The notes beneath the pieces are model-generated. The model did not search any database. It worked only from the letters and a program-made list of their open reading frames with translations, and had not been told where the DNA came from. This document shows positions 15,752-43,831 of a stretch of DNA of 64,000 nucleotides, one piece after another (the first letter of the stretch is position 1; every line of letters begins with the position of its first letter). Source of the stretch: Lewinellaceae bacterium SD302. GTDB lineage: Bacteria > Bacteroidota > Bacteroidia > Chitinophagales > Saprospiraceae. Made by a program: the position numbers and the translations under genes. Location of the stretch: NCBI GenBank assembly GCA_002591745.1, contig PDLQ01000012.1, positions 62,001 to 126,000 of the forward strand, written 5' to 3'.

Positions 15752-15813
15752 GCTACTTTGACAGTCCAGAAAATTGTTTGCTGACCAATAGATGTTATGG
15801 CTAACAAAGTAGC
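15752..15813. repeat. Inverted pair of the dispersed signal word
   Basis: GCTACTTTG at 15752-15760 and its reverse complement at 15805-15813, 44 bases apart, face each other between the receptor start and the end of the GH109-like gene. The right copy extends to a 15-mer GCTACTTTGTTAGCC (15799-15813, minus strand), which is also found at 25506, 50207 and 60328. Such a pair can form a long-loop hairpin and recalls the inverted uptake-sequence pairs of other bacteria. Confidence 0.75.
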
Positions 15814-15850
15814 AATGTCGGTGAAAACATGCGGCAGTTCACCGTCGAGA

Positions 15851-20641: not shown

Positions 20642-20663
20642 GCTGGTCTAACTTACTAGCATT

Positions 20664-20672
20664 GCTACTTTG
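20664..20672 (+). repeat. Dispersed signal word GCTACTTTG (intergenic copy)
   Basis: Exact copy in CATTGCTACTTTGATAGTC followed by AAAAAAT. It lies 22 bases after the lipoprotein stop and before the terminator at 20704-20740. Confidence 0.8.
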
Positions 20673-25276: not shown

Positions 25277-25638
25277 TAAACTGTTTTAGAATTAAGTAAA
25301 CTGTTAAACACTGAGAACTATTGGTTAGTGTTATCGCGGAGCTAGAAGTTTAACCACAACCAAGCGACCGTTCTCATCATAAAGTATAGGTAAATAGATG
25401 GCGTTTATAGACCGACTAAAACAATTCAGACCGGTACATGACCGAAAGTAAGTCGGCCCCCTTGCTTGACCAAAAACTACGCTACTTTAATGCGAAACCA
25501 AGCTTGCTACTTTGTTAGCCAGACCAATAAAAGCTCACTAATCGTTCATCATCCTTAAAACTGTAGGCCATAAAATCATGAATCCGACAATACAGATCGT
25601 AAATCGTAAATTTGGACTCTCATCCCAACCAACTAAAT
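25277..25638. other. Intergenic region with two signal words, no gene seen
   Basis: The 362 bases lie between the divergent rsmE and T9SS cargo genes and should carry both promoters. They contain a near copy GCTACTTTA (25481-25489) and an exact GCTACTTTG (25506-25514) in the same orientation. No convincing ORF, RNA gene or promoter pair was seen; a TTG at 25612 in frame with the cargo gene is unlikely to be its start. Confidence 0.6.
25506..25520 (+). repeat. Extended copy of the dispersed word, GCTACTTTGTTAGCC
   Basis: One of four exact 15-base copies in the window. A near copy of the 9-mer lies 16 bases to its left. Confidence 0.8.
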
Positions 25639-32451: not shown

Positions 32452-33237
32452 ATGAAATATCCGATTTTGATCGCTTCGTTGCTGCTTTTGACGTTCACCT
32501 CCTGTAAAAACAAGGAAGTGGAGCGTTTGCAAACGGAGTTACGACTGAAGAGTGAGCAAACCAAACAATTAGAAAACCAGCTCGAGAACTCTCAACTGAC
32601 CAATGCCAACTTGCTGGATCGTATGGAAGATCTCTCCGTCATCAGCAAAGAAGGGGCCAGCAGTATCCGGGCTTCGCTGGAAAGTATCAGCGGGCAAACG
32701 GCCTTTATTCAGGACATGAGCCGTGAGATGCAACGTAAAGACAGTCTGAATCTCGCTCTGGTGATGAACCTGAAACGCTCTCTGAACAACGTCAATGACA
32801 ACGACATCCAGGTGGAAGTACGTGGCGGCAAAGTACATGTAAGCATCAGCGACCAGATGCTGTTTGGCTCCGGTAGCGCCCGGGTAAACTCGGCCGCAAA
32901 CGAAGTATTGGGCAAAGTAGCCACCGTTCTTAACGATCACCGCGACCTGGACGTCATTGTGGAAGGCCACACCGATAACGTGCCGATCAAAGCCAAAGGC
33001 ATCCGCGATAACTGGGAGCTGAGTACCATGAGGGCCGCCGCCGTAGTGCGTGTGCTTTCTGACGAGTATTACGTAGATCCGGCGCGCCTGAGTGCCGCCG
33101 GCCGCGCCGAATTCGATCCGCGTGGTGACAATGCCACCGCTAACGGCCGGGCCATGAACCGCCGTACCGAGATTGTGATCACCCCGAAACTCGACGAATT
33201 CTTTAAACTGATGGAACAACCGGGCAGCCCGGGATAG
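32452..33237 (+). CDS. OmpA-family lipoprotein with N-terminal coiled coil
   Basis: A 261 aa protein. The start at 32452 gives a lipobox signal (MKYPILIASLLLLTFTSC). Next comes a coiled-coil region rich in Gln/Leu/Glu heptads (about 20-105) and a C-terminal OmpA domain with VIVEGHTDNVPIKAKGIRDN, ELSTMRAAAVVRVL and NRRTEIVITP. This domain binds peptidoglycan, so the protein probably links the outer membrane to the wall. One GCTACTTTG copy (as CAAAGTAGC at 32913-32921) lies in the gene. Its 3' end overlaps the convergent aguA gene by 35 bases. Confidence 0.88.
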   Translation: MKYPILIASLLLLTFTSCKNKEVERLQTELRLKSEQTKQLENQLENSQLTNANLLDRMEDLSVISKEGASSIRASLESISGQTAFIQDMSREMQRKDSLNLALVMNLKRSLNNVNDNDIQVEVRGGKVHVSISDQMLFGSGSARVNSAANEVLGKVATVLNDHRDLDVIVEGHTDNVPIKAKGIRDNWELSTMRAAAVVRVLSDEYYVDPARLSAAGRAEFDPRGDNATANGRAMNRRTEIVITPKLDEFFKLMEQPGSPG

Positions 33238-34300
33238 CAGGAATCTGCATGGTCAGACAATGAATGCTGCCGTGCTGTTCAAGTAAAAAGTCCGCCGACT
33301 GGAGGACGATGGAGCGATCCGGAAAGGCCCGTTGCAAGACGGCTACCGCTTCCGGATCGCTTTTTTTGTCTATGGCCGGTACGATCACCGCTCCGTTGGT
33401 GATGAGAAAGTTGGCGTAGCTGGCTGGAAGCCGACGCCGATCCTCCTGGCTGTATACCGGTGAGGGCCAGGGAAGCGGCAGCAATTCATAATTTACCCCT
33501 TCCGTATTTTTAAAGGTAGCCAGTTGCTGGGCCATGCGCTGAAATTCATTGTAGTGCTCATCATCGGGATCATCGCAGGCCTGGTAGACAATAACATTAC
33601 CGGGAGCAAAACGGGCCAGGGTGTCGATGTGGCCGTCGGTATCGTCATTTTCCAGATGACCGTAATCCAGTAGTAGCAACTGTCGGATGCCCAGGAATCG
33701 CTTGAGTAACATGATAAGTTCTTCCCTGCTGTGATGCGAATTTCTCCTGGTGTGAAACAGGCACTTACTGGTGCTCATGACCGTACCGGCTCCGTCACTT
33801 TCGATACTGCCACCCTCCAAGACAAGGGGCAGAGGGTTGTACTGAGCACCGTACAAAATCGCTCGTGCGACCAAACCACGGGTGACGGCATTATCCAGCT
33901 CAGCGGGGTATTTTTCACCCCAGCCGTTGAAGGTAAAGTCACAAACTGTAGCTCGGCCATTTTCGATGATCGTAATGGGGCCGAAGTCCCTGGCCCATAC
34001 GTCATTGGTATCCAGATAGACCAGATAAAGCGGATACCTGAAAGCATAGATGATACGATCGAAACGAATATTCTCCGGTCCTCTGACCTCTTTCTCATTT
34101 CTTTCCGTCCAGACTTGATTGAATAATTTTTGGTCTGACAGAACCAAGATAACGGGCGTATATTGACAGATCGTAGCACATAAGTCCAGGTGCTGACGGG
34201 CGGTGGGAATACTCAGTTCGCCGTAGTCACCACCCCGGCGTGGGAAGCTGAGTAAAACAACTTGTTGGGGGTGCCATTCGGGGGGTAAGTGGTGGTTCAT
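33203..34300 (-). CDS. aguA: Agmatine deiminase
   Basis: A peptidyl-arginine-deiminase family enzyme that converts agmatine to N-carbamoylputrescine. Visible motifs are TNDVWARDFGPITIIENG, LVLEGGSIESDGAGTVMST, LLDYGHLENDDTDGHID with the active-site His, and the C-terminal catalytic Cys in QHGSIHCLTMQIP. The start is set at ATG 34300 (MNHHLPPEWHPQQ), which fits the family N-terminus. The last 35 bases overlap the end of the convergent OmpA gene. Together with aguB at 23654-24529 it completes putrescine synthesis from agmatine. Confidence 0.93.
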   Translation of the reverse strand: MNHHLPPEWHPQQVVLLSFPRRGGDYGELSIPTARQHLDLCATICQYTPVILVLSDQKLFNQVWTERNEKEVRGPENIRFDRIIYAFRYPLYLVYLDTNDVWARDFGPITIIENGRATVCDFTFNGWGEKYPAELDNAVTRGLVARAILYGAQYNPLPLVLEGGSIESDGAGTVMSTSKCLFHTRRNSHHSREELIMLLKRFLGIRQLLLLDYGHLENDDTDGHIDTLARFAPGNVIVYQACDDPDDEHYNEFQRMAQQLATFKNTEGVNYELLPLPWPSPVYSQEDRRRLPASYANFLITNGAVIVPAIDKKSDPEAVAVLQRAFPDRSIVLQSADFLLEQHGSIHCLTMQIPAIPGCPVVPSV

Positions 34301-34319
34301 GGTTCGTGTTTCCCCACCA

Positions 34320-34384
34320 GAGTACGCCACTATCCGAGCGGCTAGAACTATTTCGCTCCTAGCTGCTCGGATAGTGGCGTACTC
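34320..34384. repeat. Near-perfect 26-bp inverted repeat
   Basis: Arms 34320-34345 and 34359-34384 match at 25 of 26 positions, with a 13-base loop. The element begins and ends with GAGTACGCC / GGCGTACTC. It lies between aguA's start and the stop of the DUF4403 gene, both on the minus strand. There is no T run, so it is not a classical terminator. Confidence 0.7.
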
Positions 34385-36619: not shown

Positions 36620-37636
36620 TTGTCGAAAATCAACCCCTTCTCTTTGAAAGCCACCATTGAATCACTCTACCGCCGTGAAGCCCTGAGCCGTGAAGACGCT
36701 CGCCAGACCTTGCTCAGGATCGGCCGGGGCGAGATCAACCCCGCCCAGATCGCTGCCTTCATTTCCATTTTCAATATGCGCCCCATAACCATGGATGAAC
36801 TCCAGGGTTTTCGTGATGCCATGCTGGAACTGGCCGTTCCCCTGGACCTGGAAGGAAGGGAAACCATCGACGTGGTCGGTACTGGTGGTGATGGAAAGAA
36901 TACTTTCAACATCAGTACGTTGAGTTGCGTCGTGATCGCCGGTGCCGGCTATCAGGTGAGCAAGCACGGCAGCTACGGTGTCAGCAGTGCGGTAGGCAGC
37001 AGCGATGTATTGATCGCCCTGGGCTACGAGTTCACCAACGACGGTGATAAGCTCCGACGCCAGTTGGATGAAGCAGGCATCTGTTTCCTCCACGCGCCGC
37101 TTTTCCATCCGGCCATGAAAGAAGTAGTGCCCATTCGCAGGGAATTGAAAATGAAAACATTTTTCAACTGGCTCGGTCCATTGCTCAACCCGGCGAAGCC
37201 TAAATTCTCCGTCATGGGTACTTACGGATCGGAGATCAGTCGGCTCTACGATTACGTGATGCAGGAAGAAACGGGACGCGAATACGCTATCGTACATAGC
37301 CGAGATGGCTACGATGAGGTCAGTCTTACCGGTGGCGGTACTCAGGTGCGTAGCCGCGAAGGCCAGCAACTTCTCTATCCCCAGCACTTCGGCCTTCCTC
37401 AACTGATGCCCGCCGGTCTGCACGGCGGCGAGACCAAAGATGAGGGCGCGAAAATTTTCCTCGACATCCTCGACAACAACTGCTCAGTGGCCCAAAAGGC
37501 CGTCGTTTGCGCCAATTCCGCCCTGGCCATCCGACTGATGGGCCCCGACAAGAGCCTGGAAGAGTGTGCCGCCGAAGCACGGGAGAGTATTGAAAGCAGT
37601 AAGGCGCGGGAGGTACTAAATAAATTGCTGAGGTAA
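36620..37636 (+). CDS. trpD: Anthranilate phosphoribosyltransferase
   Basis: Transfers phosphoribose from PRPP to anthranilate in tryptophan synthesis. Visible motifs are the PRPP-binding DVVGTGGDGKNTFNISTLSC, KHGSYGVSSAVGSSDVL, and NPAKPKFSVMGTYGS. The frame starts at TTG 36620 (MSKINPFSLKATIESLY); another TTG at 36644 would also fit, and no ATG lies near. TACCTTTG at 36615-36622 matches the -7 consensus, which would argue for the later start. No other trp genes are nearby. ribF follows 37 bases downstream. Confidence 0.94.
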   Translation: MSKINPFSLKATIESLYRREALSREDARQTLLRIGRGEINPAQIAAFISIFNMRPITMDELQGFRDAMLELAVPLDLEGRETIDVVGTGGDGKNTFNISTLSCVVIAGAGYQVSKHGSYGVSSAVGSSDVLIALGYEFTNDGDKLRRQLDEAGICFLHAPLFHPAMKEVVPIRRELKMKTFFNWLGPLLNPAKPKFSVMGTYGSEISRLYDYVMQEETGREYAIVHSRDGYDEVSLTGGGTQVRSREGQQLLYPQHFGLPQLMPAGLHGGETKDEGAKIFLDILDNNCSVAQKAVVCANSALAIRLMGPDKSLEECAAEARESIESSKAREVLNKLLR

Positions 37637-37673: not shown

Positions 37674-39734
37674 ATGAAAGTTCACCATCACCTCGACCAA
37701 CTCCCCCTTTTCCGGCGGGCAGTACTGACCATCGGCAGTTTCGACGGCCTCCATCTGGGGCACCAGTCGTTGCTCCGGCGGGTGCGTGAACTGGCGGAAG
37801 AGGAAGGCGGTGAAAGCGTTGTAGTTACCTTCGATCCTCACCCGCGTAAAGTGCTGAGGCCTGAATTGCCGCCCCCCGTTCTGCTTACCAGCCCACGGGA
37901 AAAGATCGACCTGATCCGGGAAGCGGGTGTCGATCATCTTGTCTTTGTTCCCTTTACCAAAGAATTTTCCAGCCTCAGCGCCGGAGCCTACGTCGAAGAA
38001 TTTCTCGTCCGTCGTTTTCAGCCGTCACGTATTGTCATCGGTTACGATCATAAATTCGGAGCGGGCCGTCAGGGAGATTTGCAATTGTTGCGTTCCTTCG
38101 GCGAAAAGCACGACTTCAGGGTGGAAGAGATCGGCGCAAGGGAGATCGAGGAAATGGCCGTCAGTAGTACCAGAATACGCAAGGCGATCAGTGGCGGTGA
38201 GATCAAGGAAGCGAACGAGCTGCTCGGTTATAATTACCGGCTCAGTGGCACCGTAATCACCGGACGCCAGATCGGACGTTCCATCGGTTATCCTACCGCC
38301 AACGTACAGCCGGACCATCCGGATAAGCTCATTCCCGCCGAAGGTATTTACGCCGCCGAGGCCGAGTTGTCCAGCACTTCGAAAAGACTGCGGGGCATGC
38401 TCTACATCGGTCAGCGACCCAGCCTCAACGACGGCCGCGACCTGACCATCGAACTCAATATCTTCGATTTTGACCGCGACATCTATGGTCAGGACATCAG
38501 TATTCGCATCACCGACTTTATTCGCCACGACCGTGAGCTGGATGGTCTGGAAGCATTAAAGGCGCAGCTTATGGCTGACAAAGTAGCCGTGTTGAAAACC
38601 TTCGAAGAAAAAATTCCGCTATCGGGCGAGCAGTCGACCGTGACCGACTCCGCCCCGATCGATCTGGATACCGCCATCGTCATCCTTAACTACAACGGCC
38701 GTCAATATCTGGAGTTATTTCTGCCCCCCCTGATCGACAGCCTCATTGAGGGTTCCCGGATCATTGTGGCCGATAACCTGAGTACCGACGACTCCGTGGC
38801 CTGGATGAAAGCCAACCACCCGAACATCGAGTTGATTGAAATGCCCGAAAACTTCGGTTTTGCGGGTGGCTACAACCATGCGCTGGAGCAGGTGGAAGCC
38901 GATATTTTTGTCCTCTTGAACAGCGATGTGGAAGTGACCAGAAACTGGTTGACGCCCTGTCTCCGGATGTTTCAGGACGACGAGATGGTGGGAGCTTGCC
39001 AACCTAAAATTCTGGCCCAGCACGATAAGAGCCGCTTCGAGTACGCCGGAGCCGCCGGAGGGTGGATAGATTCCCTGGGCTATCCTTTTTGCCGGGGCCG
39101 CATCTTTACCCATACCGAGGTTGATGATGGTCAGTACGATACCCCGCAGGAGATTTTCTGGGCAACCGGTGCTGCCTTGTTCATCCGTTCCAAGCTTTTT
39201 AAAGATTTAGGTGGCTTCGAAGCCGAGTACTTCGCCCACGCCGAGGAGATCGATCTTTGCTGGCGCCTCAAGCGATCCGGTTACAAAGTGATGGCTCAAC
39301 CGGCTGCTACGGTTTATCACGTCGGCGGCGGCACCCTGGCCTACAAGACCCCCCGTAAGACCTACCTCAACTTTCGCAATACGCTTACCACCAGCTTCAA
39401 AAATGAGCCAGGCATCAAGCTATTCTGGTGGCTTCCACTTCGCCTACTGCTTGATGGAATGGCCGGCATGCTGTTTTTGGTACAGGGGGACTGGGCACAC
39501 ATTAGCGCCATTCTCCGCGCCCACTGGCACGTTTACCCCCGATTGCGTTTTTGGTACCGTCGTCGCCAACTGCGCAAACAGCAGATCGAAGCCGTACGGA
39601 TCGGACCCGACCGCTCGGACGTAGGCACTTTACACGACAGCGTGGTATTGCACTACTACTTCCTGAGGAATAAGCGTTTCGATCAAATCGTACATAAGCA
39701 ATTTGATCTGGTTCATCCCGATAATCAACAGTAG
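37674..39734 (+). CDS. ribF: Fusion: RibF (riboflavin kinase / FAD synthetase) with C-terminal family 2 glycosyltransferase
   Basis: One uninterrupted 686 aa frame with two complete enzymes. Residues 1-310 are RibF: the adenylyltransferase motif IGSFDGLHLGHQSLL, VIGYDHKFGAGRQGD, and the kinase motif GRQIGRSIGYPTANVQ. After a linker (about 312-324) comes a GT2 of the rhamnosyltransferase type: TAIVILNYNGRQYLELFLP, ENFGFAGGYNHAL, the DxD-like LLNSDVEV, ATGAALFIRSKLFKDLGGF and AHAEEIDLCWRLKRSGYKVM. The dispersed word (38579-38587) lies in the last RibF helix, close to the junction. RibF makes FMN and FAD in the cytoplasm; the GT acceptor is unknown. No functional link is known to me, so the fusion may reflect loss of a stop codon in an operon. 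Confidence 0.93.
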   Translation: MKVHHHLDQLPLFRRAVLTIGSFDGLHLGHQSLLRRVRELAEEEGGESVVVTFDPHPRKVLRPELPPPVLLTSPREKIDLIREAGVDHLVFVPFTKEFSSLSAGAYVEEFLVRRFQPSRIVIGYDHKFGAGRQGDLQLLRSFGEKHDFRVEEIGAREIEEMAVSSTRIRKAISGGEIKEANELLGYNYRLSGTVITGRQIGRSIGYPTANVQPDHPDKLIPAEGIYAAEAELSSTSKRLRGMLYIGQRPSLNDGRDLTIELNIFDFDRDIYGQDISIRITDFIRHDRELDGLEALKAQLMADKVAVLKTFEEKIPLSGEQSTVTDSAPIDLDTAIVILNYNGRQYLELFLPPLIDSLIEGSRIIVADNLSTDDSVAWMKANHPNIELIEMPENFGFAGGYNHALEQVEADIFVLLNSDVEVTRNWLTPCLRMFQDDEMVGACQPKILAQHDKSRFEYAGAAGGWIDSLGYPFCRGRIFTHTEVDDGQYDTPQEIFWATGAALFIRSKLFKDLGGFEAEYFAHAEEIDLCWRLKRSGYKVMAQPAATVYHVGGGTLAYKTPRKTYLNFRNTLTTSFKNEPGIKLFWWLPLRLLLDGMAGMLFLVQGDWAHISAILRAHWHVYPRLRFWYRRRQLRKQQIEAVRIGPDRSDVGTLHDSVVLHYYFLRNKRFDQIVHKQFDLVHPDNQQ

Positions 39735-39803: not shown

Positions 39804-39840
39804 CTCCTCTGATCAAATGCGATCAGAAAGGAGCATTTTT
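39804..39840 (+). terminator. Hairpin with T run after ribF-GT2 / in the FG-GAP leader
   Basis: CTCCT and CTGATC pair with GATCAG and AGGAG across a 2-base bulge and a 6-base loop, followed by TTTTT (39836-39840). It probably ends the ribF-GT2 transcript, but it also lies downstream of a candidate promoter, so attenuation of the next gene is possible. Confidence 0.55.
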
Positions 39841-43764: not shown

Positions 43765-43831
43765 CAAAGTAGCAGTGGTTAGTTAATGCAGAAATTAGTT
43801 TTTTTGCGACGATCACCGAAGGTAAAGTAGC
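43765..43831. repeat. Two copies of the dispersed word in direct orientation
   Basis: CAAAGTAGC at 43765-43773 (exact) and TAAAGTAGC at 43823-43831 (one mismatch), 58 bases apart, in the 224-base gap between the EEP and sulfotransferase genes. No gene is visible in that gap. Confidence 0.7.

Follow-up and report, generated by a model that had tools for sequence, protein, structure and literature searches.

The window, a stretch of 64,000 nucleotides from Lewinellaceae bacterium SD302, contains on its forward strand, at 37674-39734, a single open frame that runs from ATG to TAG over 686 codons and encodes a protein with a calculated mass of 78 kDa. The N-terminal half of the protein is a RibF enzyme, in which an FMN adenylyltransferase domain precedes a riboflavin kinase domain that closes with a helix at residues 292-312, while the C-terminal half is a GT2-type glycosyltransferase (Table 1). 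Three Pfam models score well above their cut-offs, namely FAD_syn (PF06574, residues 14-167, 172.7 bits against 27), Flavokinase (PF01687, residues 184-307, 117.3 bits against 19.6) and Glycos_transf_2 (PF00535, residues 335-457, 68.5 bits against 23.3). The RibF half also passes the NCBIfam equivalogs NF004160 (301.6 against 295) and TIGR00083 (241.3 against 184.35), so that both domains of RibF are present, in the correct order and above curated thresholds. These data bear out the claim of an earlier note on this DNA that one unbroken frame encodes both a bifunctional RibF and a GT2 domain, each of them complete. The order of the domains given there stands, but their limits (residues 1-310 and from about 325) lie slightly too early, as RibF extends to 312 and GT2 begins at 332. 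The GT2 half exceeded the cut-off of none of the NCBIfam equivalogs; the identities MftF and rhamnosyltransferase were rejected as the respective models score far below threshold. In a search with the fusion query, the fusion is the sole RibF match in the window's genome, which suggests that its RibF half provides the FMN and FAD of the organism. The second match in this genome is a GT2 paralogue that displays 28% identity.

Table 1. Features at and around the fusion gene, in window coordinates.
Feature	Position	Strand	Evidence
TrpD, anthranilate phosphoribosyltransferase	36620..37636	+	TIGR01245, 297.6 bits against a cut-off of 199.05
RibF half, residues 1-312	37674..38609	+	Pfam and NCBIfam above cut-off, structure match, invariant motifs
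9-base word copy GCTACTTTG (minus-strand reading)	38579..38587	-	inside last RibF helix
Interdomain linker, residues 313-331	38610..38666	+	low model confidence; length and sequence vary among relatives
GT2-type glycosyltransferase half, residues 332-686	38667..39734	+	PF00535, GT-A fold, invariant residues

The AlphaFold2 model of the fusion protein (mean pLDDT 87.1) displays ordered RibF and GT2 domains; the last RibF helix is followed by a disordered segment at 314-326 (pLDDT below 50), and the first strand of the GT2 domain begins at residue 333. The model thus depicts two confidently predicted domains joined by a loose tether, with a pTM of 0.56 that leaves their mutual placement unfixed. 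The RibF half aligns with the FAD synthetase of Corynebacterium ammoniagenes (5fnz_B) over 310 residues with a Z score of 32.9. It resembles the prokaryotic FAD synthetases of known structure, such as those from C. ammoniagenes (2x0k) and Thermotoga maritima (1mrz), in containing both domains, in their order and in its invariant motifs, the Z scores against solved enzymes being about 33 over about 310 residues. The GT2 half comprises a GT-A domain followed by C-terminal helices at 560-577, 580-603 and 607-641, and is similar to GT2-type glycosyltransferases in its fold, its metal-type motif and its match to PF00535. The structural matches are headed by polypeptide GalNAc-transferases (Z scores of 22.6-25.4 and 13-18% identity; 6e4r_A aligned over 295 residues with a Z score of 25.4 and 14% identity), followed by GlfT2 and others. 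This likeness shows the GT-A fold, but says nothing on the sugar, the acceptor or the substrate. The C-terminal helices may occupy a position at the membrane surface. The most hydrophobic 19-residue stretches of the GT2 half fall at 583-603, within a C-terminal helix, and their mean value is only 1.42 on the Kyte-Doolittle scale, so a membrane seat for this half is a guess.

The checked motif residues of both halves are invariant in an alignment of 40 fused proteins, through which the window protein runs without frame breaks. In the RibF half H27, H30, T208, A209 and N210 are present in all 40 sequences, and P207 in at least 90%; H27-x-x-H30 is presumably the nucleotidyl-transfer motif, and we take T208-A209-N210 to be part of the kinase motif. 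The invariant residues of the GT2 half (again 40 of 40) are D367, N368, S370, D372, N416, D418, E524, E525, I526, D527 and H549, of which N416-x-D418 and E524-E525-I526-D527 presumably represent the DxD-type metal motif and the catalytic acid.

The trpD gene ends 37 bases 5' of the fusion gene on the same strand, and a gene encoding an FG-GAP/Por secretion tail protein follows on the 3' side. The window differs in both respects from the surroundings that recur in the family. Among 157 family loci (L001-L161, many with only about 1.5 kb of flank), an RNA pseudouridine synthase gene (PseudoU_synth_2), which we take to be of the RluA type, lies downstream on the same strand in 90, a gene for a NUBPL/Mrp-type iron-sulfur ATPase is divergent upstream in 76, and a NifU-like gene is located upstream on the opposite strand in 31; the names of neighbouring genes, here and at the free-standing RibF loci described below, derive from one member per family. 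A scan for promoters and terminators across the fusion gene revealed no excess over shuffled sequences, and no tandem repeats were found at the locus. Inspection by eye showed an imperfect inverted repeat followed by a T-rich run at 39804-39834, about 70 bases past the stop codon of the fusion gene; this is possibly a terminator, although it is absent from the output of the scan.

The fusion is widespread in the family of the window. The family is that of the genome classification used (code f1); in the NCBI taxonomy Neolewinella aurantiaca and Lewinella cohaerens belong to the Lewinellaceae, order Saprospirales. Matches were obtained in 143 of 150 family genomes drawn, with none at the threshold in the other seven, and 142 loci were examined, one matching genome (G090) being excluded at this stage. 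The two halves are fused in 111 of these loci and encoded by adjacent, separate genes in 27. In one locus (L059) they are separated by a gap of 1,407 bases (1.4 kb), which was counted as separate, two loci are cut by contig ends, and in one genome (G110) the halves are unlinked, on two contigs. When the loci are grouped by genus, 84 of the 108 genera contain only the fused form and 19 only the adjacent form, while one contains both and four show other states; genus g31 comprises one fused and one split species. A search of 40 genomes, among them the window's own, covered 21 of its genus, and 18 of these carry the fused gene. The exceptions are a genome that is 55% complete, one whose halves sit at the ends of two different contigs, and one with a broken gene. 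Named carriers include N. aurantiaca SSH13, whose protein displays 61% identity, and L. cohaerens DSM 23179. The joined frame is also present in 40 of 46 related loci (L197-L242), many from Saprospiraceae metagenome assemblies, which were kept out of the totals because they overlap with the sampled genomes. The broken gene from the window's genus (L076, G011:C3:102000-111500) is found in several pieces in different frames, perhaps through base-call errors in that assembly; its broken frame led to its exclusion from later counts.

Outside the family no joined match was listed in the samples searched. The fusion protein was used to search a sample of 198 genomes from the order, 37 of them from the family (E 1e-50, matches listed down to about 316 bits), and a sample of 198 genomes from the phylum, six of them from the family (E 1e-40, down to about 245 bits). 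Among the matches listed, a joined match, which in these samples may run across a stop, occurred in 34 of the 37 family genomes and in none of the 161 non-family genomes of the order sample; the corresponding figures for the phylum sample, again among the matches listed, are five of six and none of 192. With matches listed only down to these bit scores, a strongly diverged fusion may have escaped notice. A second match was taken as the other half without individual checks. On this basis 138 of the 161 non-family genomes of the order have at least two matches, 20 have one and three have none at E 1e-50. In the phylum sample at least two matches are present, at E 1e-40, in all 43 order- and class-mates and in 99 of the 149 more distant genomes; the one match in each of the other 50 suggests that the GT2 protein is widespread but not universal. 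Both halves were located in 14 of 15 order relatives; they were adjacent in none, and in one they share a contig, with about 10 kb between them. A joined frame in independent genomes, with orthologues that are separate elsewhere, is the pattern of a Rosetta stone fusion. The earlier note had proposed comparison of the junction in related genomes; with 111 of 142 family loci fused and 27 adjacent but separate, the fusion holds.

In contrast to the fusion, which bears a second enzyme at its C-terminus, the free-standing RibF proteins of other families comprise 306-374 residues (12 loci), and their genes lie beside truB in seven of the 12 loci and near uppP (BacA) and ftsX in six each. Orthologues of the GT2 half in other Bacteroidota, with identities of about 40-55%, are likewise free-standing, unlike their counterpart in the fusion. 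Proteins of 329-379 residues are encoded at 18 of 20 such loci in other families; in the remaining two the frame is longer, but spuriously so. A 717-residue frame (L180 and L193) was considered as a second GT2 fusion in another family and rejected, as the additional sequence is apparently a non-coding frame in front of the start codon. A lipid A acyltransferase gene is located directly 5' of the GT2 gene in seven of 38 non-family genomes, comprising every genome of families f23 (five) and f24 (two) in that set (G335, G344, G408, G422, G426, G448 and G463). The same-strand order of acyltransferase (PF03279) and GT2 is also found at L162 and L171, from two more families, giving four families in total, and is recorded for L172 and L175. 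In the remaining 31 of the 38 genomes the GT2 gene has no acyltransferase neighbour. A WbqC-like gene is near GT2 in four loci, and the other neighbours encode an HSDR_N_2 protein, the delta subunit of DNA polymerase III and a dehydroquinase. Judged by the annotation of these genes, the neighbours of RibF and of GT2 indicate different processes, and no shared pathway is known.

The separate pairs within the family illustrate how the fusion may have arisen. Relative to the stop codon of RibF, the first possible GT2 start codon is positioned at -4 or -1 in ten of the 27 pairs and within -40 to +35 in 20, and such overlapping or closely spaced genes are the easiest source of a fusion through stop loss. 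The suggestion of the earlier note that a stop codon was lost in an operon is thus probably correct as history, given the adjacent and often overlapping genes. On the tree of the joint alignment parsimony requires 12 changes between the fused and separate states (11 without L076), compared with a mean of 26.7 and a minimum of 23 when the states are shuffled; the separate trees require 16 and 14 changes (15 and 13 without L076). In a likelihood tree of 61 rows (29 of the 126 fused rows and five of the eight outgroup rows, with L062 and L076 omitted) the well-supported branches alone force at least four changes. As the deep branches of this tree are weak, and one outgroup row is placed inside the family, one ancestral fusion that was split many times afterwards and repeated separate fusions fit equally. 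The fused and split states have nevertheless swapped more than once, the changes being counted without direction, which shows that the link, although common, can be dispensed with; almost all split pairs remain adjacent. Fused sequences are only slightly farther from the outgroups than split ones (1.95 versus 1.82 for the joint alignment, 1.84 versus 1.77 for RibF and 1.91 versus 1.75 for GT2, with standard deviations of 0.17-0.19 and kinship ignored), and these distances give no sign that the fused genes are decaying.

The sequence comparisons make it probable that the fusion is a genuine and old three-activity polypeptide of the Saprospirales, in which translationally coupled neighbours were joined in frame and both halves are active. 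In the sequence of events that we propose, ribF and an unrelated glycosyltransferase gene would have become neighbours at an early stage of the family's history, in many cases with an overlap of a few bases that would couple their translation, and loss of the intervening stop codon would have fused them into one frame. Transitions between the fused and split states would then have followed more than once, with the genes staying side by side in nearly all cases, and splits probably occurred as well. The RibF half would be an ordinary producer of FMN and FAD, and on the inner side of the cytoplasmic membrane the GT2 half would transfer a single sugar to a glycolipid of the envelope or to a lipid-linked glycan. 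An envelope glycolipid is probably the target, as the acyltransferase neighbours in some families, the fold and the helices suggest; a more precise assignment to lipooligosaccharide would be a guess. The gain from the fusion would be joint, one-to-one production of the two enzymes, not the passing of an intermediate between them.

This plain joining of coupled genes suffices as an explanation; a functional tie between flavin synthesis and the glycosyltransferase is possible, although nothing demands it. Such a tie could take the form of a GT2 half that anchors FMN and FAD synthesis at the cytoplasmic membrane, so as to serve flavoproteins of the membrane or the supply of flavin to the periplasm, or of a flavin level or state that paces the envelope glycan, with selection keeping the link in either case. 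The exclusively fused state of 84 of the 108 genera, the adjacency retained in 27 of the 31 examined non-fused loci and the location of the most hydrophobic stretch in a C-terminal helix are consistent with such coupling. It is rendered rather unlikely, however, by the switches between the fused and split states (at least four, and 11 to 12 by parsimony), by the variable and disordered linker, by the separation of the genes in the 14 order relatives that possess both, and by the frequent pseudouridine synthase gene downstream, which suggests no common pathway. If it were true, flavin cofactor synthesis and envelope glycosylation would be seen physically linked for a first time, with selection maintaining the fusion across a whole bacterial family.

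The linker also bears on whether the frame yields one polypeptide or two. Counted between RibF residue 303 and GT2 residue 334 in the 126 fused loci, it comprises 14-30 residues (mean 22.5). In 62 of these loci it contains no in-frame ATG, GTG or TTG, and the GT2 half can there be made only by read-through from RibF. In the other 64 an in-frame start codon is present, preceded in 15 loci by a purine-rich 4-mer; the window belongs to this second group, with a GTG at 38640, and separate re-initiation of the GT2 half is thus possible in this strain. Translation that restarts in the linker, or cleavage of the fusion, would release the halves as two separate proteins. As a general account this is quite unlikely, in view of the 62 linkers devoid of any start codon and of the AlphaFold2 model, in which a start deeper inside GT2 would cost the first strand of the glycosyltransferase fold. 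Together with the joined frame at 111 loci and the motifs that are invariant in 40 of 40 proteins, these linkers support the true two-function protein that the earlier note had offered as one of its two readings. That a stop or frameshift missed in the assembly falsely joined two separate genes is scarcely conceivable: 27 of the 142 loci do have two neighbouring unfused genes, but an open frame shared by 111, including those of SSH13 and DSM 23179, and a window protein that aligns without frame breaks reject a lost stop or sequencing error as the cause here.

The fusion is a real enzyme fusion that joins two known enzyme families and is widespread in its own bacterial family; no description of it was found in the literature searched. 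Among the matches listed from the open-licence literature, in the portions accessible, a fusion of RibF or FAD synthetase to a glycosyltransferase is undescribed, including for Saprospiraceae, Lewinella, Saprospira and Haliscomenobacter. It is comparable to the Rosetta stone fusions of vitamin B pathways, where separate genes are joined in frame and adjacent unfused intermediates exist (PMC4921024, as far as its accessible text extends). The riboflavin fusions covered in that part of the source consist of the two RibD halves, the two RibF halves and an N-glycosidase (COG3236); the partner described here differs in being a glycosyltransferase, none of which is named among the fusions of the accessible main text. 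FpgA of Flavobacterium psychrophilum (PMC4293000), a protein of 319 residues with a catalytic domain at 4-178 in the accessible part of that report, was compared by description and not adopted as an orthologue of the GT2 half with a known phenotype. A review states, in its accessible part, that the core machinery of protein O-glycosylation in Bacteroidota is unidentified (PMC12871550). The widespread GT2 protein is a candidate member of the machinery for the O-glycan core, although the acyltransferase neighbours favour a glycolipid instead. Retention of the fusion in most of the sampled genera provides a lead on the role of the GT2 enzyme and its site of work, and the fused and split species of genus g31 offer material for a direct test. 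Automatic annotation may designate such proteins simply as RibF, thereby hiding the glycosyltransferase.

A 10-mer, TGCTACTTTG / CAAAGTAGCA, is enriched in the window, with 18 copies on both strands compared with 0.09 expected from the dinucleotide content; examples are located at 15805-15814, 20663-20672, 25505-25514 and 43765-43774. Seven of the 18 copies lie between the longest frames, although these frames cover 92% of the window, and visual inspection lengthens the word to about TTGCTACTTTGTTAGCCAAAA. A role as a promoter-like element or as a protein-binding site is possible. The copy that the earlier note had placed in the last RibF helix is present there, not as the full word but as the 9-mer CAAAGTAGC, antisense to the fusion gene (Table 1). 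This 9-mer was found near the end of RibF or in the linker in only three of 154 family loci, the window's included, and the word thus bears no general relation to the fusion; its relevance to the joint, raised in the same note, is not supported, and a role as a joint-making element was rejected on this count. Elsewhere in the window, the frame at 33203-34330 scores below the equivalog cut-offs for agmatine deiminase and encodes a member of the Porphyromonas-type peptidyl-arginine deiminase/agmatine deiminase family (PF04371, 334.5 bits).
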